Assembly (NCBI GenBank): GCA_020342235.1
Contig: CP073212.1
Span: 248,001 to 312,000 of the forward strand
Source of the DNA: Saccharomycopsis phalli
Lineage: Eukaryota; Ascomycota; Saccharomycetes; Ascoideales; Saccharomycopsidaceae
Direction: 5' to 3'
Length of the DNA: 64,000 bases
Position 1 is the stretch's first letter, and every line of letters starts with the position of its first letter. The translations under genes were made by a program, and so were the position numbers. Positions 4,996 through 45,897 of the stretch are shown here, one piece after another. Under the pieces are notes generated by a model. It saw only the letters and a list, made by a program, of their open reading frames with translations, did no database searches and was not told the origin of the DNA.

Positions 4996-5397
4996 CTATC
5001 TTCTATTAACCTTGTTCAACTTCCGCGCAGTATTGCCGTTATTCCGGGTGTTTTGCCCTCGAACCGGAAGTCCCATGGCATGCCGGAGACCGGCATACGA
5101 GCCAATCTCACGCTTCAACGCGATGTTGGCCCTGACATTATTCCGCGCAGCGTTCTCAATGGTAATCTCCGAAAGCTCCTTGGTAAGACTCATGATGTTC
5201 TTTTCCGAGAGCTGGAACACCTTCATTTTCGGGAAAAACCCGAGCTTGGCCACGATCCGGGTAGCCTCGGGGACCCCGAGCCCGTAAAACGTCTTTGAAA
5301 GGCCCTCCTGCGGTTAGCAAGCACTTCGCCCGTAATATCTACTTACAATCACCGAGAGCTTCGGCTTGATTGCTTTGCCGAGAATGTGAATCGCCAT
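4996..5397 (-). CDS. SWS2: Mitochondrial small-subunit ribosomal protein S13, SWS2 (spliced)
   Basis: Two exons: 5397-5347 (17 codons, starting [11 protein letters not shown]) and 5307-4996, giving 120 residues of the uS13 family in the mitochondrial ribosome. The intron, 5308-5346, is only 39 nt, with GTAAGT donor and CTAACCGCAG end. The splice is in phase 0 and restores the family N-terminus; exon 2 alone would lack it. The C-terminal [18 protein letters not shown] is the classic S13 RNA-binding motif. The ATG lies 40 bp from the FLX1 stop, and a TTACCCG site overlaps that stop. S. cerevisiae Sws2 is a little longer (143). Confidence 0.9.
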
Positions 5398-5437
5398 TAA
5401 CAATGTCGCTTGGGTCGCGCAATTTTTCACGGACGCG

Positions 5438-5444
5438 TTACCCG
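5438..5444. promoter_or_regulatory. Reb1-like TTACCCG site overlapping the FLX1 stop codon
   Basis: The first three bases are the FLX1 stop codon read on the other strand. The site is about 40 bp upstream of the SWS2 ATG and matches the Reb1 core TTACCCG. Confidence 0.55.
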
Positions 5445-6244
5445 CCCAACCACAGCTTTGACACCTCGTAGGTGAGAAACGTGACACACGAGGCGGGAAG
5501 CGACCGGAGAAGGTTGATCGAGAGCCCATTGTAGAACCCACGGATGCCTCCGGTGCTGTATATCTGCGCAGCGGTGTTGTATAACCCAGAAACCGCGTCG
5601 TACGACTGGAGCCGTGACTTGAGCACCTGGAAAGGGTAGAACGCGGTTGTAGACACGATTTTCGCGACACACGCAACATAAAGGTACTGGCCAACGGACA
5701 ACGGGCCCTGATGGCGATGCTTCATTGTGTCGTAGATGGTCATGTGGAGCGAGCCCTGGAAAACGGCAAACAACGACGGGGTGAAGCCCTTGAACCACGT
5801 GACCACGGGTTCGCGGAGGAGCAAATGGCGGATAGCATGGGCGGTGGATGCGTAGGCGTGTGGGGAGTTTTTGTTTGTCGACAAGAGACGAGTTTTGAGC
5901 ACCCAGATGGGGTTTGTGAGTAACGAGGTGAGCAATCCGGCGGCAATTGACGAGGACATGTAGTTTACCTGGGATGACTGGCCGTGGAGCGACTTTAGTT
6001 CCAGGTATATGGCGAAGTAGATGCTCCAGGAGGACGCGTTGCCGAGGAGGTTGATTGGGAGCCCACGATAGACGTTGCGGAACGAGGCAATGTCCTTGAC
6101 CACGGCAGTGATGGTTTTGAGCCCTGTTGTGGGGGATAGCTGGAGTCTAATTTTGAGGACGTCCAAAGGGTGGCATATTGCGGTTGACAATGCACCGGCA
6201 GTGAGGCCGGCGACGATTTCCGTTTGTCTTTTGGAGTACAGCAT
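5438..6244 (-). CDS. FLX1: Mitochondrial FAD carrier FLX1
   Basis: 268 residues; mitochondrial carrier family, six membrane spans in three repeats. The signature occurs three times: HPLDVLKIR near residue 26, NPIWVLKTRL in repeat 2 and YPFQVLKSRLQ in repeat 3. A Trp in the second motif (PIW) and PFQ in the third are typical of the FAD/folate/NAD/pyrimidine branch, and the MLYSKRQTEIVAGLTAGALS start resembles Flx1. It would move flavin across the inner mitochondrial membrane. Somewhat shorter than S. cerevisiae Flx1 (311), mainly in loops. No intron. Same strand as SWS2, upstream of it. Confidence 0.85.
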   Translation of the reverse strand: MLYSKRQTEIVAGLTAGALSTAICHPLDVLKIRLQLSPTTGLKTITAVVKDIASFRNVYRGLPINLLGNASSWSIYFAIYLELKSLHGQSSQVNYMSSSIAAGLLTSLLTNPIWVLKTRLLSTNKNSPHAYASTAHAIRHLLLREPVVTWFKGFTPSLFAVFQGSLHMTIYDTMKHRHQGPLSVGQYLYVACVAKIVSTTAFYPFQVLKSRLQSYDAVSGLYNTAAQIYSTGGIRGFYNGLSINLLRSLPASCVTFLTYEVSKLWLGG

Positions 6245-7754
6245 TACGTGATGGCCGTGATGTGCCGAGCTGGTGAGTGGTTGTTGAAATATGCAACTGT
6301 ATAAAATTTTGGTGGAACGAGAGCCAGTGGTATGGGGCGATGGAAGAGAGGAGAGAAATAAGAGAGAGGAGAGAGGAGAGAAATAGGAAAGAGAAGAGAA
6401 GAGAGAAAGAGAGATGAAAGAGAGAAAGAGAAGGGAAGAGAAGAGGGAAAGAGAAGAAATGAGAGTTGGAAGGGGAAAGAGGAAAGCGTTGGAAGAGGAA
6501 CAGAGGAAAATATGGAGATTGTGAAAAGGGACTAAAAAGGGACTAAAAAGGGACTAAAAAGAGATGGTGAAAAGAGCCAGCGGGGCGGGTCAATTTTGAG
6601 TGAGGAGTCTAGTCTAGAAGAGTCTAGTCTAGAAGAGTCTAGTCTAGAAGAGTCGAGAGTGTATATAGGATGGAGTATTGAATTGTTTATATATTTATTT
6701 ATATATTTAAATTTATTTATGTATTTATTTAAATTTAAATTTATTTATATTTGTATATATTATTTGTATATATATATTTGTATATATATATTTGTATATA
6801 TATATTTGTATATATATATTTGTATATATAATTTGTATATATATATTTATTTATCTATTTATTTATATATTTATTTATATATTTATATTTGTATACTTAT
6901 TTATCTAAATTTATTCATCTAAATTTATTTACATTTGTACATTTATTTATATCCATGTATATTCATGTATATTCATATTTTTTTATTCATTTAATATTAC
7001 CTGTTTCTCTGTATTACTTCATTACCCATTCTGTATTCTCTGTTCTTTATTTCCATTTCCGTCTCTGTCATTGCCGTTTATTATTTCCCTCTTTGTCATT
7101 CCCTCTTTGTTATTTCCTTCTTTGTCATTCCCTCTGTCATTTCCTCCATCGTTCTTCCATCATTACTCCGTCATTCCTCAATCATTACTCCTCCCCATTC
7201 CGTTTTCCATTTCAAAATCACTCCCATCATTCCCTCACCTCTACTTCCTCACCACCACCTCTTATTTCCCACTAAGGTTTGTAGCAAGAGCGAGCAATTT
7301 GCATGCATGCTACCTTGAGATGAAACACCATCAGTCATCACCAGGATCGCCCACGAGTATACAAACCGCAGCCTGTAGACAAGAACAACCAAATCTAGGC
7401 ACGACGACGCAGCCCGTCGCAACTAGCTAAGAGAAAATATACATTGCAAAACTTGGCCGTTTGGTAGTCCAGCTATCGACACATACCCGGCCGCAAACGT
7501 CAGTCGTGATGTAATTGCCTAGGGTGTTAGGAATCCTTGTCCTGTCTCGTGGCGCAGATTTTCAAACTTGCCTAGCGTTTTTACAACCCACGCAAAAAGA
7601 CTACTGGGTATATACCACACATTGGGCCAGAGAGACTCTAATCGCGAGGGCACCCGGATTTGCGCAACACACCTTCATTCACCGGACCATTAGAGCTAGA
7701 ACCGCTGGCCGCTCGCTCACTTATACAGTACATGTGTCTGGCCCCACGCACAGC
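6245..7754. repeat. Low-complexity intergenic region (purine, AT and pyrimidine tracts)
   Basis: About 6340-6500 is a GA-rich purine tract. 6525-6560 has three copies of the 10-mer AAAAGGGACT, and 6600-6655 a 15-bp repeat (GAGTCTAGTCTAGAA). About 6675-6960 is an AT-rich array of TTTGTATATATATA and ATTTATTT. About 7000-7270 is pyrimidine-rich (TCATTCCCTC type). Open frames here translate to Tyr/Ile/Leu or Ser/Phe monotony and are not genes. 7280-7754 is ordinary promoter-like DNA for the ubiquitin-fold gene. Confidence 0.8.
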
Positions 7755-8678
7755 ATGGCAGACACCGACTTCATCACAATAACGTTGCTCTTTGTCAACT
7801 CAATCCGACAGGACCTCACCATCAACGACACGTTTCTCCAAGTAAACAACTTGCCCTACGACTCCGTCGCCCAGGTCAGAATCGCAGACATCATCGGCTT
7901 CCTCATCACAAACTGGCAGCCGAAATGGGGCCAGAAGCCCTTGAATATTGCCCAGGTCCGCTTCATCCAGCTTGGCCGCTCGCTCCGCACTGCCTTGTCG
8001 TTAGGCGACTTGAATCTATCAAAGTCTGCAGTGTTCCACGTCAATCTCCGCCCGGTATCGGTCAAGGACACTTCCAACCGCCGCGCAAGCTTGTTGGTGC
8101 CGACGTCCCACAGCAAACGCACCACTCGTGTCTTCTCCAACAACGGCCAGCCAATGACAGTCAACACCACCGACGACATCAACTTTGCCGTCAACGACAA
8201 CGGCACCACCACAGTAATCGGCAACGAGGTCGACATCTCGACGTACTACAACGACCGCTACGGACTCAACATCCCTGGAAACCGCATGAGCCACAATATT
8301 CCTGGAAACCGCAACAGCTACTTTTCGTCGTCGCGGAACCGCCAGAGCTACTTCGAGGCGCCGACCACCGGCTCGTCGCAGTCGTACCTGATCAACCGCA
8401 GCTACCGGCGGCGCTACAGCGACGACACCACCGAAGAAGACGACGATCTCGAATCGGACGACATTGAACAGCTCGGCACTCTCCAGCCGCAGCCCGAGTT
8501 CCATCACGTGATCACGACGAGCAAGGGGTTGCGGGAGCAGGCGGCGCGGGACGCGCCCCCCGGGACGGTTCCGGGCGGCCCGCCGGCGGGGCTGCTACCC
8601 AGAGAGGCCCCCCGCACAGGGGCCCCGTCCCGGGGCGGGCCCCAGACTGACTCGCAGGGCTGCTGCACGATTGTGTAG
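7755..8678 (+). CDS. Ubiquitin-fold protein with C-terminal CaaX box (UBL3/MUB-like)
   Basis: 307 residues from the ATG at 7755 (MADTDFITITLLFVNSIRQ). Residues ~5-110 look like a ubiquitin-like domain of the UBL3/MUB kind: two beta strands, an extended loop, a helix, then KPLNIAQVRFIQLGRSL, matching the IRLIxxGRxL core. The protein ends CCTIV, so CTIV reads as a CaaX prenylation box with a second Cys just before it, which implies membrane anchoring. Between them are a Ser/Asn/Arg-rich linker with a duplicated NIPGNR motif, an acidic patch and a Gly/Pro-rich GC-heavy tail. The frame is open upstream, but MADTDF is the natural start. Function in yeast is unclear. Confidence 0.7.
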   Translation: MADTDFITITLLFVNSIRQDLTINDTFLQVNNLPYDSVAQVRIADIIGFLITNWQPKWGQKPLNIAQVRFIQLGRSLRTALSLGDLNLSKSAVFHVNLRPVSVKDTSNRRASLLVPTSHSKRTTRVFSNNGQPMTVNTTDDINFAVNDNGTTTVIGNEVDISTYYNDRYGLNIPGNRMSHNIPGNRNSYFSSSRNRQSYFEAPTTGSSQSYLINRSYRRRYSDDTTEEDDDLESDDIEQLGTLQPQPEFHHVITTSKGLREQAARDAPPGTVPGGPPAGLLPREAPRTGAPSRGGPQTDSQGCCTIV

Positions 8679-8791
8679 TTTGCAGGGCGATAAGGCAGAA
8701 GCACCGAAAATCTTTGTTACGCTTGTTTATTTCTTTCATGTCGCTTTTTTTTTATGTTATATACACTTTTTAATTCCCCCCAAAACCCGTA

Positions 8792-8809
8792 TGACTCACC
8801 CATGACTAA
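8792..8809. promoter_or_regulatory. Paired Gcn4-type sites upstream of ASN1
   Basis: TGACTCA at 8792-8798 is a perfect Gcn4/AP-1 site; TGACTAA at 8803-8809 is a common variant. They lie 58-75 bp before the ASN1 ATG and fit general amino-acid control of asparagine synthesis. Confidence 0.65.
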
Positions 8810-8834
8810 TTTTTCCACGCATGTGACCGCGCAG

Positions 8835-8841
8835 TATAAAT
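8835..8841 (+). promoter_or_regulatory. TATA box of ASN1
   Basis: TATAAAT about 30 bp before the ATG at 8867 and just downstream of the Gcn4-type sites; the 5' UTR would be very short. Confidence 0.45.
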
Positions 8842-8866
8842 TGCCCCGAGAAAAACTTCATCTCCA

Positions 8867-10579
8867 ATGTGTGGAATATTTGCAGCCTACCGCTTACCAG
8901 ACGCCCTGGCCTACAAGGACCAGGCGTTGAAACTCTCGAAACGGATCCGCCACCGTGGCCCGGACTGGAGCGGCAACTTCAAGTCACAAAACAACCACAC
9001 CATCCTCTGCCACGAGCGCTTGTCCATTGTCGGCGTGAGCTCGGGCGCCCAGCCAATCACCAGCGAGAACGACGCCTTGGCGCTCACCGTCAACGGCGAG
9101 ATCTACAACCACATCGCGTTGCGCGAGTCGTTCCCTGAGTACCCGTTCAAAACCGCCTCCGACTGTGAGACCATCATCCCATTGTACCAGAAGTACGACC
9201 TCGACGCGCCAAACCACTTGGACGGCATGTTTGCGTTTGTGCTCTACGACGAAAAGCGCGACCGTGTCGTCGCCGCACGAGACCCAATCGGAGTCATCAC
9301 CTTGTACATGGGCCGCAACTCCGCCCAGCCAAACACCCTCTATTTTGCCAGCGAGCTCAAGTGCCTCACTGAGGACTGCGACCTGATTGTCGCCTTCCCG
9401 CCAGGTCACGTGTACGACTCCGACACCGACCGGATCACGCGCTACTTCAACCCGTCGTGGTGGGACGAAAACAAGATCCCAACGACCCCGGTCGACTACG
9501 CAAAGTTGCGCCACACCTTGGAGTTGGCCGTCCGCAAGCGGCTCATGGCAGAGGTGCCGTTTGGTGTGCTTCTCTCCGGCGGATTGGACTCGTCGTTGAT
9601 CGCCTCGATTGCCGCACGTGAGGCTGCACGTGCCTCCGAGAACACCGACCTGGACGAGTTGGCAGGCGTTGACAAGGACGGGAACTTGCACTCCAGCAGC
9701 TGGGGGAAGGTGCATTCCTACGCCGTCGGCTTGAAGGATGCACCAGACTTGTTGGCCGCGCGCAAAGTCGCCAAGTTCATTGGCACCTTGCACCACGAGT
9801 TCACCTTCACCTTGGAGGAGGGCTTGGACGCGTTGAGCGACGTCATATACCACTTGGAGACCTACGACGTCACCACCATCCGCGCATCCACGCCAATGTA
9901 CTTGCTCAGCCGCAAAATCAAGGCCCAGGGCGTCAAGATGGTCTTGTCCGGCGAAGGCTCCGACGAGATCTTTGGCGGATACCTCTACTTTGGCGCAGCA
10001 CCAAACGCAGCCGAATTCCACACCGAGTGCGTGAAGCGGGTCAAGAACTTGCACTTTGCCGACTGTCTCCGTGCAAACAAGTCCACCATGGCCTGGGGCT
10101 TGGAAGCACGGGTGCCATTCTTGGACAAGGCGTTCCTCGACCTCACCATGAACATCGACCCGCGGGAGAAGCTCATCAAGCCAGAGGAGAAGCGCATCGA
10201 GAAGTACATCTTGCGTAAGGCGTTCGACACCTCCGATGACCCGGCCGCCAAGCCGTACTTGCCAGACGAGATCTTGTGGCGCCAAAAGGAGCAGTTTTCC
10301 GACGGTGTCGGCTATGGCTGGATCGACATGTTGAAGGACACTGCCGAGGCCACAATCTCCGACGAGCAGTTTGCCCATCCTAAGCCGGAATGGGGCGACG
10401 ACATCCCAACCACCAAGGAGGCCTACTGGTACCGCTTGAAGTTTGACGAGTTGTTCCCGCAAAAGGCGGCCGCGTCGACTGTGATGCGGTGGATTCCAAA
10501 GGCCGACTGGGGGTGCCACGAGGATCCAAGTGGACGATATGCCAAGTTGCACGAGCAAAAGGTTGACGAGGTGAAGTAA
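8867..10579 (+). CDS. ASN1: Asparagine synthetase (glutamine-hydrolysing)
   Basis: 570 residues, the length of yeast Asn1/Asn2 (572). It makes asparagine from aspartate, glutamine and ATP in the cytosol. The start MCGIFAA exposes the catalytic Cys2 after Met removal; glutaminase-domain hallmarks [17 protein letters not shown] and NGEIYNH follow. The synthetase half has the SGGLDSSL pyrophosphate loop and SGEGSDE motif. The C-terminus ([20 protein letters not shown]) is as in yeast. Codon use is strongly biased to TTG, AAG and GCC, suggesting high expression. Codon 173 is CTG at a position where I recall Ser in S. cerevisiae Asn1 (CDSIISFPPGH), a hint that CTG means Ser here. Confidence 0.97.
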
Positions 10580-10699
10580 TTGTTGACATTGTGGCGGGCT
10601 TGCAATTGGATTGGATATGTGACTTAATTAGACATGGTGGACACTGTGTGTATATAAACTATAAACCATCAATATTCGTGCTGTAGCCACTACATTGTA

Positions 10700-10960
10700 C
10701 CATGAGAGACCTGATGTATGTAGACCTGATGTATATAGACCTGGATGTATGTAGGCTTGGATGGAGATGTAGATCTGGATTGACATGTAGATCTGGATTG
10801 ACATATAAACCTGGATTGACATATGTAGACCTGAATTGACATATAAACCTGAATTGACATATAAACCTGGATTGACATATAAATCTGGATTGACATATAG
10901 ACTTGGATTGACATATAATCCTGGAGTAAACCTGGGGTAGACCTGGAGTAGATTATTGTT
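10700..10960. repeat. 21-bp class minisatellite downstream of ASN1
   Basis: Core CTGGATTGACATATA, with spacing changes and a GTAGACCTG variant at both ends; roughly a dozen degenerate copies. The opposite-strand frame reads as Tyr-Val-Asn-Pro repeats and is not a gene. Confidence 0.85.
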
Positions 10961-11034
10961 GAGGTTGGAAACCACAAGTCACCTACAACGGAGAAGCAAT
11001 TCTACGTTGAATGTACTCACGGCACAACATGCAC

Positions 11035-23275: not shown

Positions 23276-23997
23276 ATGTCTGCCAACAGCAAGATCTTAT
23301 CTAAGGAGCCAACTGAGCTTGAGTTGCAAGTTGCACAAGCCTTCATTGACTTGGAGTCGCACTCCCCAGAATTGAAGCCAGACTTGAGATTGTTGCAATT
23401 CAAGTCCATTAGAGAAGTAAGTATCAATGGCGGAACCTAGAGTACTTGATAAAAGAAGGGATACTGGAGATTTTCGCACACGAAGATTGATGAAGGCTGT
23501 TCGTCATTCGATTATCAGCTATAATATAGGAACCATTCTGTGGCACTCCTGATAGCATACTAACAGCATAGATTGAGGTTTCCGGTGGAAAGAAGGCCAT
23601 TGCCATCTTCGTCCCAGTGCCATCGTTGGCTGCTTACCACAAGGTCCAGATCAGATTGACCAGAGAGTTGGAGAAGAAGTTCCCAGACAGACACGTTGTC
23701 TTCTTGGCCGAGAGAAGAATCTTGCCAAGACCAGGCAGAAGCTCTAGACAAGAGCAAAAGAGACCAAGATCTAGAACCTTGACTGCTGTTCACGACAAGA
23801 TCTTGGAGGACTTGGTGTTCCCAACCGAGATCATCGGAAAGAGAACCAAGTACTTGGTTGGTGGTAACAAGGTCCAAAAGGTCTTGTTGGACTCCAAGGA
23901 CTCTTCCAACGTGGACTACAAGTTGGAATCGTTCCAGTCTGTTTACAACAAGTTGACTGGTAAGCAAGTTGTTTTTGAAATCCCAGGTGACTATTAA
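23276..23997 (+). CDS. RPS7: 40S ribosomal protein eS7 (spliced)
   Basis: Exon 1 23276-23416 (47 codons, [18 protein letters not shown]) and exon 2 23572-23997 give 188 residues, as expected for eS7 (190 in S. cerevisiae). Intron 23417-23571, 155 nt: GTAAGT donor, TACTAAC branch site and CAGCATAG end, so this ribosomal-protein intron is longer than the others in the window, although its branch site is also close to the AG. The splice restores [14 protein letters not shown]. Codons are extremely biased (TTG, AGA, AAG), as in highly expressed yeast genes. Part of the small ribosomal subunit. Confidence 0.97.
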
Positions 23998-25035: not shown

Positions 25036-25619
<584 letters not shown>

Positions 25620-25807: not shown

Positions 25808-27544
25808 CTACATCATTTGTACATAGCTCGTGGGGAAGAGTCCTCGTTGGCCCTTAATTTCCCCCATGGTCCACCCGCTGCCGTCATCGGCCTGCACAAT
25901 GGTAACCACGTCTCCGGCTGCAAGCGACACCTCGTCGCTGCCGTCAGCTTCGTACGCATACAAAGCCCGCGCCTGTGGCACCTTCTTCCCGCTCTTGCGC
26001 GACACAACTTTTGGCGGACTTTTCTTCACCACAATAAAGCTCGTAGGCACAAGCCCCTCGGACCCGTCCTGCTTGCGGATATTCGTCCACCCGGACCCGT
26101 CGTCCGGCTCCACGATATCAAACTTTTCGCCAGCACTGATGCTTGCTTCGCCATCCTCGGTGGCTTGGTAGGCATATGTCGCCAGTCCTTCCAGTGGAGA
26201 TCCCTCGCGAGAGCTGATGCTGAGGGTTCGGACCGCAGCTACTGGGTCCTTGTCGCTTTTTCCCCGGAGGAACCCCAACCGGCTCTTTTTCTTGGCCTTG
26301 AGTGGCTGGTTTACGGTCATGTCGACGTCGCCGACCGACGTTTGGATCGTCTGCATCTCGACCTCAGCGGCCACACGCTGGTTGTCGTCGACAATGAACC
26401 TCCGGAGACTCTGGATCGACTCGTCCACGTAGTAGTGCATCGGCCTGTCCTTGGCCCCACCCTGCTTCAACGCCTGTTTGCTGCGGTTCAAGTCGCTGAT
26501 CTTCTCCTGTAATCGCTCGCACGCCGCGTCCTTGTCCTGGTACGTCTTGTTGGCCGCCTGTAAACTCGCCTTGAGCTCCCGCAACTCCGGTTCACTGGTG
26601 ACTATCGCCTCGTCATCGTGCCAAATGGGCGACGGCTGGTAGTAAAAGTCCTGGGGCTCCTTCCAGGGCTCGACGTTGTGCTTGATGTACATGATGGTGT
26701 CAAGATTGTATGTGTTTTTGCCAATGATCCCGACAAGCGACTGGAGATGCAGGCTCGACGAGCCGTTGGCCGAGCTCTCGAGGGTGATTGCTCGGTTCCA
26801 CAACAGGTTCATCTCGACGACCTTGAACTCAATCAAGTCCTGCAACCCGTCCAAGATCTCCGGCAAGTCCTGGTAGTAGTACTTGTCCTTCAACCGGTTG
26901 GTCTGGTTGATCTTGATGACGTACCCGTTCTTGGCGCAGTTCATCTTGGTCTCCTTCTCACCCAACTTCTTCTGCTTCGACGTCGACCCGGACCTCTCGG
27001 CCTTCACCCGGATATGCTCCATATCCTGACAACACCCATCGTACCCCAGCTTCGCCTTCTTCAACTCCGCATACGCACCGTCCCGCTCCTTGGTCACGAG
27101 CAGGTGCAAGTCCTGGTACTTCTTATGCAACACCTCCGTCATCCGCTGGAAATGCGCAATCTTGTCTGCTACCTCGCTCAGAAACTCCGTGCCCAAGGCC
27201 ATTTTGTCCCGCGCAACGTTCTCGGTCTGGTTCAAGATCTCGTTCCACACCACCAAGCTCGAGCTCTCAAGCGACCCCGGAGTCACCGACGGCTCGTCGC
27301 CAACACTCACCAGCGCACTGATCCGCGCCTTCTTCTTGAACGACTCCGAGCAGAGCTGCTGCAACTTCGTGGCATAGTCCTTCTCAATCGCCGCACGCTG
27401 CCGGTAGAACTGCTCCACGTCGCTGAGCCACTGGAGATTGTTGCTGCACCACTTGTCTGTCTTTTTGAACGAGTCCTAATGTCAGTGTTGCCGACGTGCG
27501 TGCGTACTTACCCTTAATTCGCTGCCTACACTGACGTCCACCAT
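25808..27544 (-). CDS. BZZ1: F-BAR/SH3 protein BZZ1 (spliced)
   Basis: Exon 1 27544-27512 (MVDVSVGSELR) and exon 2 27475-25808 give 566 residues. The intron is only 36 nt (27476-27511): GTAAGT donor and ACTGACATTAG end, the shortest here. It joins ...GSELR to DSFKKTDKWCSNNLQWLSDVEQFY, the family start of the F-BAR domain. Domains: F-BAR ~10-280, coiled coil ~290-330, two SH3 domains at ~440-500 (TYAYQATEDGEASISAGE) and ~510-566 (ARALYAYEADGSDEVSL). Bzz1 binds Las17/WASP and bends membrane at actin patches during endocytosis. Missing the intron would yield a non-ATG start. Confidence 0.95.
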
Positions 27545-29803: not shown

Positions 29804-29811
29804 TCACGTGA
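29804..29811. promoter_or_regulatory. TCACGTGA palindrome overlapping the RPC19 stop codon
   Basis: An 8-bp E-box (Cbf1/Pho4-type core CACGTG). Its first three bases are the RPC19 stop on the minus strand; it lies ~52 bp upstream of the DUF2009 ATG and may serve that gene. Confidence 0.4.
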
Positions 29812-30281
29812 CGCGATAGTCGTTGCCGGAGATCTTCTCGGCAAACCTGTGCTCCACGACCTCGCAAAGGTCCCGTAAGTCGTCCAAGCCTTTCTGGAGT
29901 GCCTCAATTGCCGTGATCTTGCCATATGTCTGGATCCGGAGATGCAATTTTGTCTCCGAGGGATGTGGGATCGAGTATCCGCAAAACTCCACCTCTGGGT
30001 TCCGGATAATTATCAGCTTCAACGCATTGCCCAACGTGTGATCCTCATCCATGATCTGAAATGACACTGCAGTTCCGTCTTCACTTGCACCGGGCAACTA
30101 AATGTTAGTATGTGATCTTGACTCTCAGCAATTGCTGTCTGTCGTGCAAAGCTACTCCCATTGTGCAAAGCTATCCATCGCACCACGCGATACTCACCAT
30201 CTTAATCTTCTCGTGGTCCAACTCCTCCTCTTCCTCCTCGACCTCATCTACAGCAGCCATTTCGACATCTTGCGCAGCCAT
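29804..30281 (-). CDS. RPC19: RNA polymerase I/III shared subunit AC19 (spliced)
   Basis: Exon 1 30281-30198 (28 codons: MAAQDVEM..., an acidic run, then DHEKIKM) and exon 2 30097-29804 give 125 residues. Intron 30098-30197 is 100 nt, GTGAGT donor, TACTAAC branch site five bases before the terminal TAG. Exon 2 opens LPGASEDGTAVSFQIMDEDHTLGNALK, the alpha-like dimerisation motif, followed by CGYSIPHPSE. This is the Rpb11-like subunit that pairs with AC40 in RNA polymerases I and III. S. cerevisiae Rpc19 has 142 residues. Confidence 0.95.
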
Positions 30282-32376: not shown

Positions 32377-32893
32377 CTACTTCAAGTACCGTTGGGCCTG
32401 CTCCTTCACCCGCTTCAAGTACTCCGGCTTATTTTTGGAAAAAGCCTTCCAGGCCTCCTCTTGCGCCGGGGAATTCGGATTCGGGTCGTTCAAAAGCTCT
32501 TGCACACCCAAGACAATCTGCTTCAACGTAATCGCAGGTTTCCAGTCTTGTTCCTCGTTCAAAATACTCAAACAAACCGTGCCCGATGGATACACATTGG
32601 GATGGTAGAAGCCCGCTGGAAACTTCACTTTCGGAGGCTTTGACGGGAAATCCTCAGGAAAATTTATCGTCACAGGATACACAGACTCGCCCCATATCGT
32701 GTCGGCCTTGCCCGGTATACCAGCAGTCCATGTTTGCAAGTTCAACGACCCATCCAGGTTCTTAGTCGGCTTCGCATAGAAGCCAAAAGGATGGTCCTTC
32801 CGCCATGACTTTCTGTCTGATTAATAATGTTCCATATCTCATCGCCTCCACTCACCTTTCTTCCTGTAACCGTGCAGTCCGCAACCCACTCAT
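32377..32893 (-). CDS. UBC9: SUMO-conjugating E2 enzyme UBC9 (spliced)
   Basis: Exon 1 32893-32856 ([12 protein letters not shown] plus two bases) and exon 2 32812-32377 give 157 residues, exactly the S. cerevisiae length. The intron (32813-32855, 43 nt; GTGAGT donor, ATCAGACAG end) splits an Arg codon and joins to [15 protein letters not shown]. Active site: [15 protein letters not shown] with the catalytic Cys. The N-terminal basic stretch binds SUMO. Its branch site is weaker (TTAAT). A CTG codon at 32755-32757, in PTKN-x-DGS where relatives have Ala/Pro, would give a better fit as Ser. It transfers SUMO in nucleus and cytoplasm. Confidence 0.96.
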
Positions 32894-35634: not shown

Positions 35635-36294
35635 ATGAAATCGGCCATTACCACATCAAGTATGGTAGCTGCTGGGTATCTTAGTGTTTTCACGGTCTTG
35701 GTTGTTGGAGGATGTAAGTATGAATTTGCCGTGATGGGCGTGTACTGACCATTAGATCTTTTATTCACTGGGCATGGTGAGACGTTCAATGTCGGTGAGT
35801 TTCTAGCGACAACGTCACCATATCTCTGGGCCAGTTTGGGGATAACTGCCTGTATAGGATTCAGTGTTGTGGGTGCGGCGTGGGGAATTTTCATCACGGG
35901 TGCCTCGATTATTGGAGCTGGTGTGAAGGCTCCGCGAATAACCACAAAGAACTTGATTTCGATTATCTTCTGTGAGGTTGTGGCGATCTACGGGTTGATT
36001 ATGGCGATTGTGTATACGTCGAAGTTGACGAGCGCGTCATCGGAGGCGTTATACAGCAAGGACAATTTGTATACTGGGTATGCCTTGTTCTGGGGCGGTA
36101 TTACTGTGGGATTGAGCAACTTGATTTGCGGGATATGTGTGGGGATCACAGGGTCGACTGCGGCTGTTTCCGACGCGGCTGACAGTGCGTTGTTTGTGAA
36201 GATATTGGTGATTGAGATCTTTGGCTCTGTGTTGGGGTTGTTTGGGCTTATTGTGGGGTTGTTGATGGGCGGTAAGGCCAATGAGTTTAGCTAG
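35635..36294 (+). CDS. VMA16: V-ATPase proteolipid subunit c'' (spliced)
   Basis: Exon 1 35635-35713 ([18 protein letters not shown]...) and exon 2 35756-36294 give 205 residues (213 in S. cerevisiae). The 42-nt intron (35714-35755; GTAAGT donor, TACTGACCATTAG end) splits a Tyr codon and restores [28 protein letters not shown]. Five hydrophobic helices; the [14 protein letters not shown] helix carries the essential proton-binding Glu; [12 protein letters not shown] and [13 protein letters not shown] are hallmarks. Subunit c'' sits in the rotating Vo ring of the vacuolar proton pump. The branch site CTGAC is shared with the BZZ1 intron. Confidence 0.96.
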
Positions 36295-36911: not shown

Positions 36912-37289
36912 CTATTCACTGAAATTCCCCGAATCATGGTATTCCTTATCTTCCTCTTCTGGCTCTTCTCTTCGCAATCCATATCCTTCGCCATCCTCCT
37001 CGGGCTTCTCATTGAGCTCTTCACAAGCATCTACCCAGTCAGAATACACGTCAACCGGTGCACTTAGCAACGTCACCGTGGTGTGGAACGTCTGTCCACA
37101 AACCTTGCACTTTAAACTGCCAATCAACGACTTCTTGTCGATCTTGCAAATGATGGATTTCTCGTGGTTGCAGAACAAGCACGAAAAGGTCGCCTCCAAC
37201 TTCTGCACCACCCGCTTAGTGGGTTTTCTCGCCGACTTTTTCCGTCCCTACATGTTAGTTTTGCCTTCCATTGCTCGAGTACGTACCAT
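36912..37289 (-). CDS. ELF1: Transcription elongation factor ELF1 with ATG-only first exon (spliced)
   Basis: Exon 1 is the ATG alone (37289-37287). The intron 37248-37286 (39 nt) has donor GTACGT and end CTAACATGTAG; exon 2 is 37247-36912. Product 112 residues: GRKKSARKPTKRVVQKL basic N-terminus, zinc ribbon CLFC...CKVCGQTF, then the W-containing DVYSDWVDACEEL helix and acidic tail. Elf1 is the conserved RNA polymerase II elongation factor acting on chromatin. No ATG exists in exon 2 that would keep the basic N-terminus, so splicing is needed. S. cerevisiae Elf1 has 145 residues. Confidence 0.92.
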
Positions 37290-37338: not shown

Positions 37339-37359
37339 GTACATGAGAGATGAGGTTCG

Positions 37360-37370: not shown

Positions 37371-37387
37371 GAAAAAGCCAGTCCACA

Positions 37388-39643: not shown

Positions 39644-39650
39644 CGGGTAA
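39644..39650. promoter_or_regulatory. Reb1-like site (CGGGTAA)
   Basis: 48 bp upstream of the MRPL38 ATG, within CCCGGGTAACCCG. Confidence 0.5.
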
Positions 39651-39697
39651 CCCGATGAAATTCTTTCATTCGCGTACATGCGATTCTTCACCACAAG

Positions 39698-40096
39698 ATG
39701 ATCTATCTAAAGACCATGCTCAAGGTGATTGACAACTCTGGTGCACAATTTGCCGAGTGCATCAAGGTGCTAAAGAAGGCGCCGACGAGTTCTGCGCGGT
39801 TGGGCGATAAAATAGTCGTGGTTGTGCAGAAGGCCCGGCCAATCACCAGCACCATCACGGGAGCTTCCAACGCCAACCGGGTCAAGAGAGGAGATATTGT
39901 GCATGCGGTTGTGGTGAGACAGAAGCAGAATTACAAGCGGGACGACGGGTCGTTTGTGAAGTTTGGTGATAATGCGTGTGTGCTAATCAACAAGAACAAC
40001 AACGATCCATTGGGCACGAGAATATCAGGTGTGGTGGCCAAGGAGGTGAAGCAGGGGTATGGGAAAATCGCCACCTTGGCTCCAAAGGTGGTTTAG
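39698..40096 (+). CDS. MRPL38: Mitochondrial large-subunit ribosomal protein uL14
   Basis: 132 residues, a complete bacterial-type L14: [46 protein letters not shown], and [25 protein letters not shown]. Length is like yeast Mrpl38 (138). It belongs to the mitochondrial large ribosomal subunit and, as in yeast, shows little extra leader. No intron. A strong Reb1-like site sits just upstream. Confidence 0.95.
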
Positions 40097-40689
40097 TGGG
40101 TGGTTGGTACGGTTGAGCTGAGCAGTAGGCTTGTATATAGATCAATCTACAAAGGCATATAATGTGATTGAGCGACTTGTAGGATGGCTAAGATGGAATG
40201 TTGTCACAGTTTTAGTCTATGGCATAAGATTTTGTAAAGTGTATGAATTCTCGCTTGATGTTCTGGTTGCGATTATGCATACTGATACCGGTGGTTTTTG
40301 ATACTGGTGGTTGCTATTTATAACATTACCCATCCTAGCCATTGAATATATAGGGTCTATTTGTAGCAATGGAAATTGCAACATATTTCCTGACTTTGTT
40401 GGATTGACATGTTTTCCCAGCGGTTTCACATAAGCCATGCTGGTATCTAGATTTGTATCAATTGGAAAACTTATAATCTTTGACCAGATTTGGCCATTTG
40501 CTTGGCCTTTGTCTCTAATAGTCTTGCAAATATTTGTATAATATCATAGATTGCCATTTGATTTTGAAGTTTCTGCCGAGTTTCTGCTGTCTCTGCTGTC
40601 TCTTCAGTTTCTGCCGTCTCTTCAGTTTCTGCTATATCTTCAGTTTCTGTAGTCTTGGTTCCCAAATCTACCTCTGCTTTGTACTCCAA
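40097..40689. other. Intergenic region containing a coding-like extension behind the TGL stop
   Basis: 40097-40470 shows nothing gene-like. 40471-40689 on the minus strand continues the lipase reading frame after its TAG stop for 72 codons, with an AETEET acidic repeat and a helical QNQMAIYDIIQIFARLLE segment (see findings). Confidence 0.6.
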
Positions 40690-42747
40690 CTACTTTTGAT
40701 AATCCTCCGGCCCAAATTCCGGCTTGGGCCTGTCCTTCTTGTCCTTGGGCGAGGACAACGAGTTCATGGAATAAAACTTCAGAATGGCCGACCTTCCCCC
40801 AGACAAGGGCTCATTCAACGAGTTGTGCCGGGAGAAATGTAGCCGGATTGAAGAGGTGCTGTTGATGGTGGAGACGGAGTTCTGTCTGCGCAAATGGCCG
40901 ATTTTACGAAGGCTCCCATGGGAAATGGAGCGAGTAAATGAGGACGGGGTGCGAACCAGGAAGTTAAAGTTTGTTTCCTTGACGTCGTCCTCGGAAGTAT
41001 CTTGATCGTCGGTGTTGACGGGACAGTTGACAAGAGGCAATGGAAAACCTGCGACATTAATCTTGTTGGAGATGAGCCGGGAGCGGAGGTAAGAGATGCA
41101 CTCGTCCAAGAGAAACTCGGTGTAGCAGTGGTTGCGGATCATGGATATTTTCGGCCAAGTAGAGCGAGCGCCACGGACGGTTGTGTCGAGCACAAACTGC
41201 GGAGTTGGGTTGACGAGCATCTTGCCCAACTCTGCGATACGGAGCTCAGGCAAGATTGTAATGTCGCCCGAGTACCGCTGGGTGAGCACTGATTTAATTT
41301 TCTTGCACAAGTTGCGGGCAAAGCCGGTTTCCCTGGCCAAGTCGAGCATGTGGATGAGTTCGGCGGTGACGCAGCCGTAGAGCGAGTTGAAGTAGCTTTT
41401 GATGATTGCGCTGGACTCGTTTTCGATTTCGCCGCCGACGGCAGCAAGCGAGAGTTTTAAAAACGGGGCTACGTGTGGATTTACCTGGCATGCGACGATG
41501 TGGTCGACGTTGAACATCTCGCTGAGTCTTGTGATGGGCAAGTCGTTGTCGACTGAACCATCGACGAACTTCACAGAGACATGGTTCCACTCGCGGGTCT
41601 TCCCCGAGGAAGGGTCCTTTTCGTAGAGAATAGTGGACGGGAAGATGCCGGGGAGAGCACAGGAAGCACAGACTGCGGACCAGATCAAGACGTTGGGCGA
41701 AGTGATGTAGTTGAGTAGGCTTGGCTGTTCATGGAAGGACACTGGGGACACTGTAACGTTGAGGATGCGTCCAGTGCGGTTGTATGCCTCTCTGAAGGTG
41801 AGGTCGCCGAGGAAGTGCTTCATGGTGCTGATCAAGTAGCGGTTGTCGAACCAGGTGCCGGAGTGGACGAAGCGCAACAAGTTGACGAGCACGGACTGCT
41901 TGCTGTCTGCGGAATCGCTGAAGATGACAAACTCTCTGGAAAGGATGTCGGACAACAAGCCGTCGATTTCCAGCGGGGTGTGCACCAGAAGAATGCTGGC
42001 GACAATGGCGCCAGCGGAGCTGCCGGAGACGATCCGCGGAAGCAAGTTCTGCTCGAGCAACGTCGACAAGACCCCGATGTGGAAGAGCCCGAAGCACCCT
42101 CCGCCCGAGAGCACCAACGCAGTGCGGCCAATCGCCTTGCGGGTCTGGATAAGCATGCCAAGCAAGTAACGGTCGTCGATGCCGGTGTCGGCCTCTAGCA
42201 AGCATCCCAACGAGAGCTTGCACTCTTCAAGGTACTGCTCGATCAACGTCTTGGTGCCGGCCAGCGAATGCCGGTACAAGTTGACGTTCTGGATGTTGCC
42301 AATGTTGCGGGTCCAGGTGGTCCGGATCAAGTACAAGAGCTTCTTGTAGTTCCGCTTCTCGCGCGCATACCGGAGCTGCTGCAACCGGAGCGAAATCAAC
42401 TTGTAGTCGTACAAGTTCGACACCGGATCGGCCTTCCACTCTTCGTTGCCAAGCACCAAGTCGAGCTTGAGTGCCAACTCCAGCCACTCGTCGTACGAAA
42501 TCGCAACTTTCTGCTGCGCCGTGAGCGACGTCACCACCTGCTCCATCTCGTCGGGAGGACCCACTAAATGCTTCACCACGGGCACAACCCGGAGGATTCG
42601 CGAGAGCAAGTCGAGCACCCACTCGAAAAGAAGCGCAAACTCAAATCCAAACGACCTCGCAAAAAGCGAGCCGCACCGGCCCTGTGGCTCGGACACCGGC
42701 TCGCTAGTAGAGGCGTGCTGCTTGATGAGCCGTTCGGTGAAGTTCAT
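40690..42747 (-). CDS. Patatin-type triacylglycerol lipase, Tgl3/4/5 family
   Basis: 685 residues from ATG 42747 (MNFTERLIKQH); upstream codons lack an ATG. An N-terminal hydrophobic segment (~33-58) could bind the lipid droplet. Patatin core: oxyanion loop SGGGCFGLFHIGV (~214-226), nucleophile motif GSSAG (Ser244) and the DGS...ND motif with the catalytic Asp (~370). The C-terminal region is Ser/Arg-rich (RRQNSVSTINSTSSIR). Size and motifs suit Tgl4/Tgl5 (storage-lipid mobilisation, lysophospholipid acyltransfer); Tgl3 is less likely. The TAG stop is followed by a further in-frame coding-like segment, so the true C-terminus may be longer. Confidence 0.88.
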   Translation of the reverse strand: MNFTERLIKQHASTSEPVSEPQGRCGSLFARSFGFEFALLFEWVLDLLSRILRVVPVVKHLVGPPDEMEQVVTSLTAQQKVAISYDEWLELALKLDLVLGNEEWKADPVSNLYDYKLISLRLQQLRYAREKRNYKKLLYLIRTTWTRNIGNIQNVNLYRHSLAGTKTLIEQYLEECKLSLGCLLEADTGIDDRYLLGMLIQTRKAIGRTALVLSGGGCFGLFHIGVLSTLLEQNLLPRIVSGSSAGAIVASILLVHTPLEIDGLLSDILSREFVIFSDSADSKQSVLVNLLRFVHSGTWFDNRYLISTMKHFLGDLTFREAYNRTGRILNVTVSPVSFHEQPSLLNYITSPNVLIWSAVCASCALPGIFPSTILYEKDPSSGKTREWNHVSVKFVDGSVDNDLPITRLSEMFNVDHIVACQVNPHVAPFLKLSLAAVGGEIENESSAIIKSYFNSLYGCVTAELIHMLDLARETGFARNLCKKIKSVLTQRYSGDITILPELRIAELGKMLVNPTPQFVLDTTVRGARSTWPKISMIRNHCYTEFLLDECISYLRSRLISNKINVAGFPLPLVNCPVNTDDQDTSEDDVKETNFNFLVRTPSSFTRSISHGSLRKIGHLRRQNSVSTINSTSSIRLHFSRHNSLNEPLSGGRSAILKFYSMNSLSSPKDKKDRPKPEFGPEDYQK

Positions 42748-43299
42748 GGTGTGGGTTTGGGGAGTGTTTTTCGCAGTTTGTATTCCCCATGGCAATGCAT
42801 GACATGCAGCTGACAGGGTATAAAAGGATTGAGTGGTTTTGGTATATACGGAAACGTGAATATTGGGTGGGAAGGTGAGGAGGAGAATAGGAAGAGAGTG
42901 GGGAGATGCGCAGGTGGATTTGATGAGCGGTAAACTAGCTTGTAGGATGGATTCTTGAGGTGTCTACAGTTGGTCAAGTAGTCATTCGAGGCGTGAAAAC
43001 TAGTCAGGCAAAGCAACACAGGATGTAGCAAATGGTGTGATATTGGATATTCCTGGATATTTCATGTGCAATTTATTCATATTCATGTTTATTTAGGTAT
43101 ATTTATATGTCTATTCATGTCTAGTTATATGTCTATTTATATATGTCTATTTCATGCCTATTCATATCCATGCCTATTCATTTCATCGTCTAATTTAACA
43201 TATGCTACATAGCCCTGTAACATATCCCACACCGTGCTGCCAACCGCGTTCCACTTACTGAATTGACTCACAAATCACAACAAAGAACACGTCTTATAA

Positions 43300-43395
43300 T
43301 AACAATCTTCATTCGTATCTTTAGCCATGTACCGTCTCTGAAAATACAGCTTATTCAAGCATTCTTCTCAGCAAGAGCACATTGACTATGCGTTA
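43300..43395 (+). mobile_element. Possible third, more diverged scrap of the same old retroelement
   Basis: Alignable by eye with the first ~95 bp of the relics at 11035 and 15545 (TTTAGC, GTCTCTGAAAATAC and TTCTCAGCAAGAGCA against their counterparts). Small, broken and old; weak evidence. Confidence 0.25.
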
Positions 43396-43609
43396 AAATC
43401 TCACTAGTGCAGTTGTATCCAGCTCTCAACATATGCACCAGATATGGCTGCTACTCAGAGAAACAAGTTTATATCCTCAACAAAATAGCCATGGAGTAAA
43501 TAACATCACCCCCAATATGCAGACGTATTCCTGCGTTTTCAATCTAGCCCATACATCTAGCTTCAATCTGTCCTACACATTCTACAACATTCCACTCACT
43601 CCACTCACC

Positions 43610-43735
43610 CGAAATTATCCACACACATCTTCTTACAGGCTTATATCTCCACCGATCCACACACATCTTCTTACAGACTTACATCACCACCAATCCACAC
43701 ACATCTTCCTACAGGCTTACACCTCCATCATATCC
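43610..43735. repeat. 38-bp tandem repeat, three copies
   Basis: Units start CCACACACATCTTC and end in ACATCACCA or ATATCTCCA-like variants; located just beyond the STS1 stop. Confidence 0.85.
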
Positions 43736-43752
43736 AACTATTTCATCTATTA

Positions 43753-44811
43753 CTAATGCAAAGTACTATCCATAATGGCGTAGCTGTTGTGGTTCACAGG
43801 ATTATTCCCACTGCTGAAATTCGTAGCCAACAGCTCCTCACCATCAGCACTCTCTCGCTTATATACTCCCGCATACCCTCCGCCACCAAGCTGCAAAAGA
43901 CCCTCGCCAGTTAATCGGTACTCCTCCACTTTCCGCCTCACAAACTCAACCAACTTGTCAAACTTGTCACAGTTGCTCTTGCGCTGATGCTCCAAGAGCT
44001 TCTCAAGTAAGTTAAACTCCAACATGTGGAAAACGTTCATATCCTTCTCGCTGACCGTCACATCCTCGTCCACGGCACAAAACGCATTCATGATGCTCCA
44101 CCAGGCGTTGGATAACTGCTCGTAAATGTTGCTGTAGTGGTACAAGTCGTACTTGCTCACCTGAAACAACGGGATCCGGTGCACAGCCTCAGTAGCACCG
44201 TCAATAAACCGCAAGCAGTCCACAAAGTTGCCCTCAACTGGCGGTAAGAAGTTCAAGATAAAATCAGACAAAATCAGATAAAACTCCACCAAGCTCTTAT
44301 GCACCCTGAGAAACGAATACTCAGACTCAGGCTCCACCTTGTACGGCAACTTGCTTATTATCTTGTCCTGTATATACCCATTCAAATACTTCAAAGACTC
44401 GTCCACAGTGGGGTTCACAAGCCCACTGCCCTTCTTCTCATTGTATATCATTTGATTCAACTCAGGCCGTTCGTCAATCATCTTTATCACCAAGTCACTC
44501 AACTGTTTCTTGTCCAACAACTCCACCAACCGGTTAATCGGAAGCTGCTTCCCAGCAAAATCAGAAGCCTGATTCCGCACCTTCTTGTGGCGGTTAGTCG
44601 GCAACGGCTTCATCCGCCGCCCATTTATCACACGTGTCGACCCTTCTTCCTCATCAAAGCTGAATCGCCGCTTCAGCGTTTTTCTAAACGTTGGCACCTT
44701 CTTACTCCGCACAGTACGGCTGTTTAAGGATGCAGAGGCGTCATTATAAGTGGAACTGTTTGCAGTTTCAAATTTAGGCTCAAACCCCCAAGAAAACCCG
44801 AGATTAGTCAT
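43753..44811 (-). CDS. STS1: Proteasome nuclear tethering factor STS1 (Cut8 family)
   Basis: 352 residues (S. cerevisiae Sts1 319). Basic N-terminus with a likely bipartite nuclear-localisation signal (RRFSFDEEE...GRRMKPLPTNRHKK). The Cut8 core begins LVELLDKKQLSDLVIKMIDERPEL (~95-118), followed by the helical bundle to ~300. Sts1 with importin-alpha targets proteasomes to the nucleus. The C-terminus has a Gly-rich LLQLGGGGYAGVYKRE segment and a Ser/Asn-rich tail. Divergent from SRB6. Confidence 0.9.
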   Translation of the reverse strand: MTNLGFSWGFEPKFETANSSTYNDASASLNSRTVRSKKVPTFRKTLKRRFSFDEEEGSTRVINGRRMKPLPTNRHKKVRNQASDFAGKQLPINRLVELLDKKQLSDLVIKMIDERPELNQMIYNEKKGSGLVNPTVDESLKYLNGYIQDKIISKLPYKVEPESEYSFLRVHKSLVEFYLILSDFILNFLPPVEGNFVDCLRFIDGATEAVHRIPLFQVSKYDLYHYSNIYEQLSNAWWSIMNAFCAVDEDVTVSEKDMNVFHMLEFNLLEKLLEHQRKSNCDKFDKLVEFVRRKVEEYRLTGEGLLQLGGGGYAGVYKRESADGEELLATNFSSGNNPVNHNSYAIMDSTLH

Positions 44812-44941
44812 GTTTCTGTAGCAGTGAGCAAAACAAAAAAAAGTTCAACGGGAGTTTCGGTTGTTAAATGTCACAAGGAGCCGGAAGACTAGTTGTGATT
44901 TTTTGTAGTAGCAGAAAATTAAAAGAAAAGATGGGAAATGT

Positions 44942-44948
44942 TTACCCG
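44942..44948. promoter_or_regulatory. Reb1-like TTACCCG site
   Basis: In the STS1/SRB6 divergent promoter, 42 bp before the preferred SRB6 ATG (44990). Confidence 0.5.
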
Positions 44949-44989
44949 GCCATATGTACATTGACTTTGGAGAGACGGGACTTTTAACT

Positions 44990-45406
44990 ATGCAGCAAAA
45001 GTACATAAACTACCTCAACAAGGTAGACAGTAACACTGATTTGCTTCTCAAACGGTACCGGGAGTTGATTGAGTTGTCATTGATTACTGAGGAGCCGCCA
45101 GACCCAGAGGAATTGGAGGAGGACGATGGGCGCACCAACACCAGTTTGAATGTGATTGCGTCCAAGGCATTGTCTATTGAGTCCAATGTATATAGTATTA
45201 TCAAGCTTTTGGAGGAATTGTTGCATATTACGAGGTCTTTGAAGGAGAACTGGATTTTGAACCGGCTTCCCAACGCAATTTGCGATCTCCAGGAGCATTA
45301 TAGCGAGGCGACAATCAGTAACTACGAGCAGCAGAACCGGGTTCTCCAGGGTATGGTTGATGAGTTGGTTCATCGGATTTCGTATGTTTCAGGGGAGTCG
45401 CTGTAG
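44990..45406 (+). CDS. SRB6: Mediator subunit Med22/Srb6
   Basis: 138 residues from ATG 44990 (MQQKYINYLNKVDSN), aligned with MSNQALYEKLEQT of yeast Srb6; an in-frame ATG at 44954 would add 12 residues and would start only 6 bp after the TTACCCG site. Head-module signature: LLEELLHITRSLKENWILNRLP, cited by its ends at ~72-93, matches LLILTRSIKEKWLLNQIP of Srb6. All-helical, with an acidic central loop. Part of the Mediator head with Med11. Confidence 0.88.
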   Translation: MQQKYINYLNKVDSNTDLLLKRYRELIELSLITEEPPDPEELEEDDGRTNTSLNVIASKALSIESNVYSIIKLLEELLHITRSLKENWILNRLPNAICDLQEHYSEATISNYEQQNRVLQGMVDELVHRISYVSGESL

Positions 45407-45429
45407 AAGTAGGTAGGAATGTTGGAGAA

Positions 45430-45545
45430 AGGAAGAGGGGAGAAGAAAATGGAAGAAGAAAATGGAAGAAGAAAATGGAAGAAGAAAATGGAAGAAGAAA
45501 ATGGAAGAAGAAAATGGAAGAAGAAAATGGAAGAGAAAATGGAAA
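45430..45545. repeat. 13-bp purine minisatellite
   Basis: About nine copies of ATGGAAGAAGAAA just after the SRB6 stop. A 76-codon frame over it is repeat translation, not a gene. Confidence 0.9.
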
Positions 45546-45655
45546 AAGAAACTGAAAGAAAAGAAAGAGCACGAAAAAGTCAAATGACATGCAAATATAA
45601 ACAGAGCATACAACCATATGCAAATACAAAAAAAAAAGCTAGAGCATAATACTAA

Positions 45656-45897
45656 CTATAAATCCTGACACCAGTTGCAAATGTTGCAGTGTTTCTGCTT
45701 TCTCCAGCTAATTGGGATGACAGGCACCAAAAAAATTGTGACAAACCGTTTATGTTTCCGAGCAACCACTGCGTAGTTGTGGCAATGCGGACATTGCTCG
45801 GGCTTTCCTCCGGGCAAATCCTTGTTGAATTCGTGGCCTATTGTTAGTAAATCCCAGTGGAGCTACAATACTCACTTCCTATAAGTATAAAGAACAT
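45656..45897 (-). CDS. Small zinc-ribbon protein, 67 residues (spliced)
   Basis: Exon 1 45897-45876 (MFFILIG plus one base) and exon 2 45837-45656; intron 45838-45875, 38 nt, GTGAGT donor and CTAACAATAG end. The product has an Asp/Gly/Pro start (SHEFNKDLPGGKPEQ), CPHC knuckle, a hydrophobic FVTIFLVPVIPISW segment, then CNIC and a CQDL end. This CPxC...FFVPxxP...CxxC layout is the fungal zinc-ribbon (zinc_ribbon_15-like) small protein family of unknown role. Neither exon is long enough to be obvious alone; the in-phase splice (A|GC, Ser) and typical intron support it. Confidence 0.82.

Follow-up and report, generated by a model that had tools for sequence, protein, structure and literature searches.

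A stretch of 64,000 nucleotides (nt) from the budding yeast Saccharomycopsis phalli (contig CP073212.1, positions 248,001–312,000, forward strand; here called the window) contains seven putative introns of only 36–43 nt, and raises the question whether these are ordinary spliceosomal introns and how far such shortness extends through the genome. An earlier reading made from the letters of the window (the sequence-only reading) had placed seven such introns and two longer ones (100 and 155 nt) here, and all nine were found at these places and join their reading frames. The evidence consists of genomic DNA letters, from which we infer splicing. Taken together, the results indicate that these are very probably ordinary U2-type GT-AG introns with a recognisable short class, compressed to ≈34–49 nt near two steric floors, and pattern counts indicate that the short-intron habit is genome-wide.

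All nine introns start with GTAAGT, GTGAGT or GTACGT and end in YAG, and a CTRAC branch motif is present in eight of them, with TTAAT in UBC9. In six of the seven short introns CTAAC or CTGAC is followed by 5–6 nt (YAG included), and in UBC9 TTAAT is followed by 7 nt. The donors, the CTAAC or CTGAC near the AG in six introns and the weak TTAAT in UBC9 can be seen in the letters as the sequence-only reading described them. Its picture of a branch site touching the 3′ splice site is right as to the close spacing and too strong as to the touching, as at least 1 base lies between branch motif and YAG in all nine. Read unspliced, each of the seven short introns leads to a stop codon at most 21 codons from the donor.

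For five of the short introns (UBC9, SWS2, VMA16, BZZ1 and ARF3) the junction could be aligned without a gap to solved relatives. The spliced SWS2 protein aligns gap-free with S. cerevisiae SWS2 over residues 1–120 and matches Pfam Ribosomal_S13, the ARF3 alignment with human ARF6 starts at residue 6, has no gap and crosses the junction after residue 9 (Pfam Arf), and VMA16 is gap-free to V-ATPase c″ over residues 31–220 (junction after residue 42). Only with the distal CAG as acceptor does UBC9 align gap-free, through all 157 residues, with its S. cerevisiae counterpart; an intron ending at the first CAG was rejected, since it does not restore the protein. In S. cerevisiae, too, the UBC9 intron presumably interrupts this codon, and in this phase. 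The thinnest of the five alignments is that of BZZ1 to an F-BAR protein (46 bits; Pfam FCH and SH3), with 6 aligned residues ahead of the junction, no gap at it and gaps further on.

In ELF1, where exon 1 is the start codon alone, the frame joins and the Pfam Zn_ribbon_Elf1 match starts at residue 2. The small zinc-ribbon gene also joins its frame and stops when read unspliced; its Pfam Zn_ribbon_15 match is below the cut-off and outside the junction, and this intron, supported by frame and motif, is the weakest of the set. In the frame-based scan, removal of the 100-nt intron joins the RPC19 frame, and the RPS7 frame needs the TAG acceptor, a CAG 5 bases earlier not fitting. The names RPC19 and RPS7 come from the sequence-only reading and are taken here as probable. 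Canonical ends in all nine, a branch motif complementary to U2 in eight and, in five of the seven short ones, a protein restored on removal mark the window introns as probable U2-type GT-AG introns (Table 1), and the U2 snRNA at C5:1143621 carries GTAGTA (canonical GUAGUA).

Table 1. Introns of the window (window positions) and the U2AF65-like candidate (genome position).
Feature	Length	Position	Strand	Donor and 3′ end	Exons and remarks
SWS2 (mitochondrial uS13m) intron	39 nt	5308-5346	-	GTAAGT...GCTAACCGCAG	exon 1 5347-5397, exon 2 4996-5307
RPS7 intron	155 nt	23417-23571	+	GTAAGT...TACTAACAGCATAG	exons 23276-23416, 23572-23997
ARF3/ARF6-like GTPase intron	38 nt	25555-25592	-	GTAAGT...TACTAACCGCAG	exon 1 25593-25619, exon 2 25036-25554
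BZZ1-like F-BAR/SH3 gene intron	36 nt	27476-27511	-	GTAAGT...CACTGACATTAG	exon 1 27512-27544, exon 2 25808-27475
RPC19 intron	100 nt	30098-30197	-	GTGAGT...TACTAACATTTAG	exon 1 30198-30281, exon 2 29804-30097
UBC9 intron	43 nt	32813-32855	-	GTGAGT...TTATTAATCAGACAG	exon 1 32856-32893, exon 2 32377-32812
VMA16 (V-ATPase c″) intron	42 nt	35714-35755	+	GTAAGT...TACTGACCATTAG	exon 2 35756-36294; exon 1 start codon uncertain
ELF1 intron	39 nt	37248-37286	-	GTACGT...AACTAACATGTAG	directly after start codon; exon 1 37287-37289, exon 2 36912-37247
Small zinc-ribbon gene intron	38 nt	45838-45875	-	GTGAGT...TTACTAACAATAG	exon 1 45876-45897, exon 2 about 45656-45837
U2AF65-like candidate	525 residues	C4:1604875-1606329 (L009 1381-2967)			best U2AF65 candidate

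The genome scanned amounts to 14.15 Mb in 8 contigs, and the genome-wide counts cover spans of 24–93 nt. The main pattern, GTAAGTN{9,39}CTAACN{1,9}YAG (spans 24–62 nt), was found 222 times, against 76 for the same pattern read backwards as a control. With the first gap shifted to 40–70 (spans 55–93 nt) no genome-wide excess was seen (41 vs 83 for the reversed control). As the control exceeds the real count twofold in this range, the drop from 222 to 41 between equal gap windows is the better measure. Length and spacing detail for the main pattern was taken from the first 100 listed of the 222 matches (contigs C1–C3), of which 90 are 34–49 nt long (median 41.5 nt). The same lengths were seen for 71 of 83 matches with the GTGAGT donor (control 52) and for 56 of 72 with the CTGAC branch (control 48). 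Uniform gaps would put 52% at 34–49 nt, and the binomial p ranges from 4e-6 to 2e-16 for the three signal combinations. The sequence-only reading had proposed a genome-wide histogram of intron length and branch-to-AG distance as a check; in its pattern-based form, this has a short-intron class peaking at 34–49 nt with the branch close to the AG.

Chance was assessed with a short consensus (GTRNGT, CTRAC and YAG with set gap ranges) and third-order Markov sequences as the null. The window holds 6 matches against 0.34 expected (maximum 3 in 200 simulations), and the preceding part of the contig (C1:1-248000) holds 6 against 1.7 expected (maximum 4 in 40 simulations). A de novo look at the six bases preceding CTAACN{1,4}YAG at the right distance in the whole 312 kb put GTAAGT first (7 vs 0.12 expected), with GTGAGT seen twice (0.18 expected); the 12 commonest listed for the 46 matches do not include GTATGT. 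When the matches in C1:1-248000 with GTAAGT and GTGAGT donors were translated, six of the eight joined coding frames, namely in ERG13 (38 nt), a sugar transporter (35), CDC50 (36), a SIZ1-like gene (35), SLX9 (37) and a mitochondrial L51-domain protein (47); the CTGAC-branch pattern gave 0 matches there. The Pfam domain spans the junction in ERG13 (residues 3–174, junction after residue 19) and in the sugar transporter (residues 9–448, junction after residue 22). For CDC50, SLX9, the SIZ1-like and the L51-domain protein there was a match as well, in a stretch that does not include the junction. The first two frame-based scans had given 4 and 12 candidates (controls 0–3 and 2–8) and both missed VMA16 and UBC9; they were too strict because many introns sit just after the start codon. 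As a matter of description, short-intron pattern matches number six in the window and six in the preceding 248 kb, and the GC content along C1:1-312000 drifts from 0.38 to 0.51 (12-kb steps), the window being among the GC-richer parts.

The distance from branch to acceptor is narrow. The spacing pattern allowed 4–12 nt after CTAAC (YAG included), and the 100 listed introns have 5 nt in 46 cases, 4 in 4, 6–8 in 40 and 9–12 in 10, so that CTAACNNYAG is the commonest ending and 90 of 100 lie within 4–8 nt. There is no polypyrimidine tract: in the ten bases ahead of the branch, T (0.29) and C (0.20) form no pyrimidine-rich stretch. Bringing the acceptor one base closer still, as in CTAACYAG (3 nt), gives no enrichment (3 vs 6 in the control). 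In ERG13 (CTAACAGCCAG), RPS7 (CTAACAGCATAG) and UBC9 (TTAATCAGACAG) the nearest YAG is skipped and the next used, as the frame requires. Among 124 sequences trimmed to a core (34–49 nt, with 4–8 nt after CTAAC), an AG intervenes between branch motif and matched YAG in 9. The ten final bases that the sequence-only reading saw shared by SWS2 and ARF3, CTAACCGCAG, are present in both; the sharing means little because CTAACNNYAG is the commonest ending and the decamer is not above its reversed control. As a special element it was rejected (22 genome-wide occurrences vs 37 for the reversed control).

The position of the branch A, counted from the donor, was obtained for 147 sequences (100 with GTAAGT and 47 with GTGAGT donors). 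Positions 28–42 account for 132 of them, with 6 below and 9 above that range, and the peak is at position 35 (18 of 147), which is also the median for the first 100 listed; 7 lie below position 29, some of them chance matches. In the trimmed core the mean is 34.8 (standard deviation 3.4), and the remainders of intron length on division by three (46, 45 and 33) have no clear bias.

We infer that these edges are steric in nature. One floor would lie between the donor G and the branch A, where few introns fall below position 29 and the mode is 35, and the other between branch and AG, where at least 1 base separates CTAAC from YAG and 2 are commonest. Removal in the cell would follow the usual two-step splicing, with U1 and then U6 pairing with GTAAGT and U2 (GUAGUA) pairing with CTRAC. 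An AG beyond the inner limit would be chosen as acceptor, while AGs that are too close would be skipped. As there is no room for a polypyrimidine tract, U2AF would be expected to act mainly through its protein-docking parts.

Published distances put these floors in perspective. Human splicing requires a donor-to-branch span of ≈50 nt, and for the human B complex ≈52 nt was estimated (17 nt in the U6 helix, 14 nt in the U2 helix and 21 nt to bridge 15 nm), whereas the span here is ≈35 nt, down to 28–30 (PMC6692369). By our own estimate, pairing of 6 donor and 7 branch bases in a span of 35 nt would leave 22, which about spans 15 nm; 28–30 would be too short. In S. pombe, where branch-to-3′-splice-site spacing averages 12 nt, a 6-nt gap lowered reporter protein, possibly by steric clash, and 9–12 nt was best (PMC9508853). 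The commonest distance here is 6 when the count runs from the base next to the branch A through the last intron base, in a comparison where the S. pombe count may or may not include the AG. The sequence-only reading had called such lengths near the physical minimum; very short they are, while a minimum goes beyond the letters, and shorter introns occur in ciliates, nucleomorphs and Trichomonas (PMC2483917; PMC12316389).

The sequence-only reading had also proposed an inspection of the Slu7 and U2AF homologues, and both Slu7 (51.7 bits) and a U2AF65-like protein were found in the genome, as was Prp18 (133.9 bits). Slu7 and Prp18 are described as promoting branch-distant 3′ sites (PMC9508853). 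The U2AF65-like match extends over nearly the whole model. One segment of the protein matches S. pombe U2AF59 (25 bits) and its C-terminal UHM matches human U2AF65 (36.8 bits); the U2AF59 segment of that kind binds U2AF23. For the central part no U2AF RRM was found among solved structures at E up to 0.01, and residues 307–359 match an RBM12 domain (24.9 bits, RRM-like). Docking of U2AF without tract binding would fit the lack of a pyrimidine-rich stretch. For U2AF35, eight zinc-finger matches were found in the genome, none of them assigned. One CCCH zinc-finger match (C1:685244-685306) lies ≈220 bases downstream of a 38-nt intron-like match (C1:685530-685567), both on the minus strand, making this a candidate U2AF35 gene. 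At donor position +4 the introns here carry A, in which they differ from S. cerevisiae and C. albicans, and the choice of +4 base has been linked to METTL16 and SNRNP27K across Saccharomycotina (PMC10581693).

Several points weigh against ordinary introns with a short class near two floors. The reversed control is poorly calibrated, as its twofold count at 55–93 nt indicates, the excess for GTGAGT and CTGAC is modest, and the histogram combines 100 of the 222 matches with the coordinates of two smaller sets, some of the matches being chance. Two of the eight matches in C1:1-248000 (39 and 61 nt) have no coding support. Two of the nine window introns are long (100 and 155 nt), and a looser pattern with a gap of 30–89 gave 5 window matches where 1.0 was expected (maximum 4 in 200 simulations). 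The same pattern gave 10 against 4.6 expected in the 312 kb and 5 against 4.7 in C1:1-248000; of its five window matches only RPC19 looks real, a second picks up the ARF3 intron together with an upstream donor-like site, and the rest resemble chance. Long introns with TACTAAC in the 312 kb (10 matches) were not separable from controls (12, 10 and 4) and therefore give no measure of the long class. On the side of the machinery, the Slu7 match crosses one TAA, the U2AF65-like protein scores 61 bits against a curated cut-off of 310, and RED_N had no genome match, in a search without a positive control. Apart from this weighing, two near-alike 81-nt donor-to-acceptor stretches lie ≈7.6 kb apart at C7:985278-985358 and C7:992867-992947, perhaps a gene duplication with a longer intron.

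It is highly improbable that the set consists of gene-model artefacts or chance motif combinations. A six-base donor and a five-base branch do recur by chance, as the 76 reversed-control matches illustrate, and the two unsupported matches outside the window belong here too, but the 6 matches against 0.34 expected in the window, the five genes whose frames are rescued with homology running across the junction, and the conserved domains of ERG13 and the sugar transporter that cross the junction all argue against it. A neutral deletion bias that halts at a steric floor, with no preferred length, is quite possible, although we do not lean towards it. The lengths sit just above the floor, and Slu7 and Prp18 are retained, so that no special machinery is indicated. 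A floor combined with deletion should, however, give a peak at the floor itself, and the branch-A distribution climbs from 28 to its peak at 35 and then falls; this shape in turn rests on few data, chance matches included.

Tentatively, and with considerable doubt, we also consider a two-sided length rule, by which the spliceosome would almost exclusively handle donor-to-branch spans of 28–42 nt and branch-to-AG distances of 4–8 nt, with preferred values just above the floors. Such spans are well under the human ≈50/52 nt, and the B complex would therefore have to be more compact or the U6 and U2 helices shorter. A spliceosome altered so as to accept or impose short spans, as might follow if Smu1/RED had been lost or U2AF had become poorer at binding RNA, is rather improbable. 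The RED_N result and the U2AF65-like protein, with ULM and UHM recognised and a central part without a U2AF RRM match, agree with it. The RED search is nevertheless uninformative because no control matched either; moreover, the central stretch does match RBM12, and RRM divergence, seen here in one species, may be general in budding yeasts.

Ordinary U2-type introns with a short class near two floors can be set beside several known systems. The sequence-only reading held such ultra-short spliceosomal introns to be unlike those of Saccharomyces and C. albicans, which is borne out and extends genome-wide, published medians being 148 nt for S. cerevisiae and 100 nt for C. albicans within a range of 63–467 nt for ten budding yeasts (PMC2483917). 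Shorter medians are given for E. cuniculi (32), Giardia (32), Paramecium (25), Dicyema (25), nucleomorphs (19 and 46) and Ostreococcus tauri (52; PMC2483917). Constrained branch-to-AG distances are reported for Yarrowia (2 nt), C. guilliermondii (3), C. lusitaniae (4–5) and also E. gossypii and D. hansenii (PMC2483917); the Yarrowia precedent named by the sequence-only reading is thus real, while the two Candida species are closer ones. Like the constrained hemiascomycetes, the introns here combine a strong CTAAC with a preferred branch-to-AG distance, and the most constrained of those species have no 3′ polypyrimidine tract either (PMC2483917). By the definition of Irimia and Roy (2008) the mode here is 3 nt (46 of 100) as in C. 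guilliermondii, and not the 2 nt of Yarrowia, a form that makes up 4 of 100 here. The medians of C. guilliermondii (65 nt, 13 introns), C. lusitaniae (98 nt, 10 introns) and Yarrowia (204 nt) compare with 41.5 nt for the class detected here (PMC2483917).

As in Yarrowia lipolytica, branch and 3′ splice site are nearly fused, and the main length peak of that yeast is at 41–60 nt (PMC2911113). Yarrowia introns nevertheless range from 41 to 3,478 nt (median 204), whereas most of those detected here are below 50 nt, and Yarrowia prefers GTGAGT with a mean gap of 1 nt, whereas here GTAAGT dominates (222, control 76, vs 83, control 52) and the gap before YAG is mostly 2 (PMC2911113). In Saccharomycopsis schoenii the shortest introns are 37 nt, like those here, but the median is 113 nt and the range extends to 2,318 nt (PMC13148404). 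Among free-living fungi, S. pombe and Cryptococcus also have short introns, with medians of 56 and 55 nt, though with a weaker branch consensus and in large numbers (PMC2483917). Near-uniform tiny introns of ≈19–25 nt are found in the unrelated lineages of Paramecium, the Bigelowiella nucleomorph and Trichomonas (type B; PMC2483917; PMC12316389), with almost no branch consensus in Paramecium and the nucleomorph (PMC2483917). The open-licence papers searched gave no description of a budding yeast whose introns are as uniformly short as these. Tight branch-to-AG spacing is already known from Yarrowia and CUG-clade Candida, and it is the short length that stands out.

Some other features were recorded. 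CTG is rarer than CTC although GTG exceeds GTC, and the surroundings of CTG are more polar than those of Leu codons (p 0.0002), yet also differ from those of Ser codons (p 0.003); the species, a Saccharomycotina yeast, is perhaps one of the CUG-Ser clade. ARAGORN with default settings found no tRNA in the window, in 25 examined loci or in C1:1-312000, and with introns allowed it found one tRNA-Leu(CAA) in C1:1-312000, fewer tRNAs than expected for a yeast. An Rfam search of the window gave no match. Two adjacent divergent genes of the Anp1 family lie at 45951-47249 (minus strand) and 47673-49079 (plus strand). A 547-codon open frame without Pfam match (8984-10627, minus strand) lies antisense to the frame 8840-10579 (plus strand), whose product resembles asparagine synthetase.

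The feature is real and clean, and it places this budding yeast towards the short end of known intron lengths. What is known of the shortest intron that the major spliceosome can process comes largely from human extracts and unusual protists, and introns mostly at 34–49 nt would give natural minimal substrates whose sharp edges could be related to spliceosome structures. The species would also test why Slu7 and Prp18 persist at a very short branch-to-AG distance, and annotation with a gene finder set to a 50-nt intron minimum would lose or disrupt the majority of the spliced genes found here.

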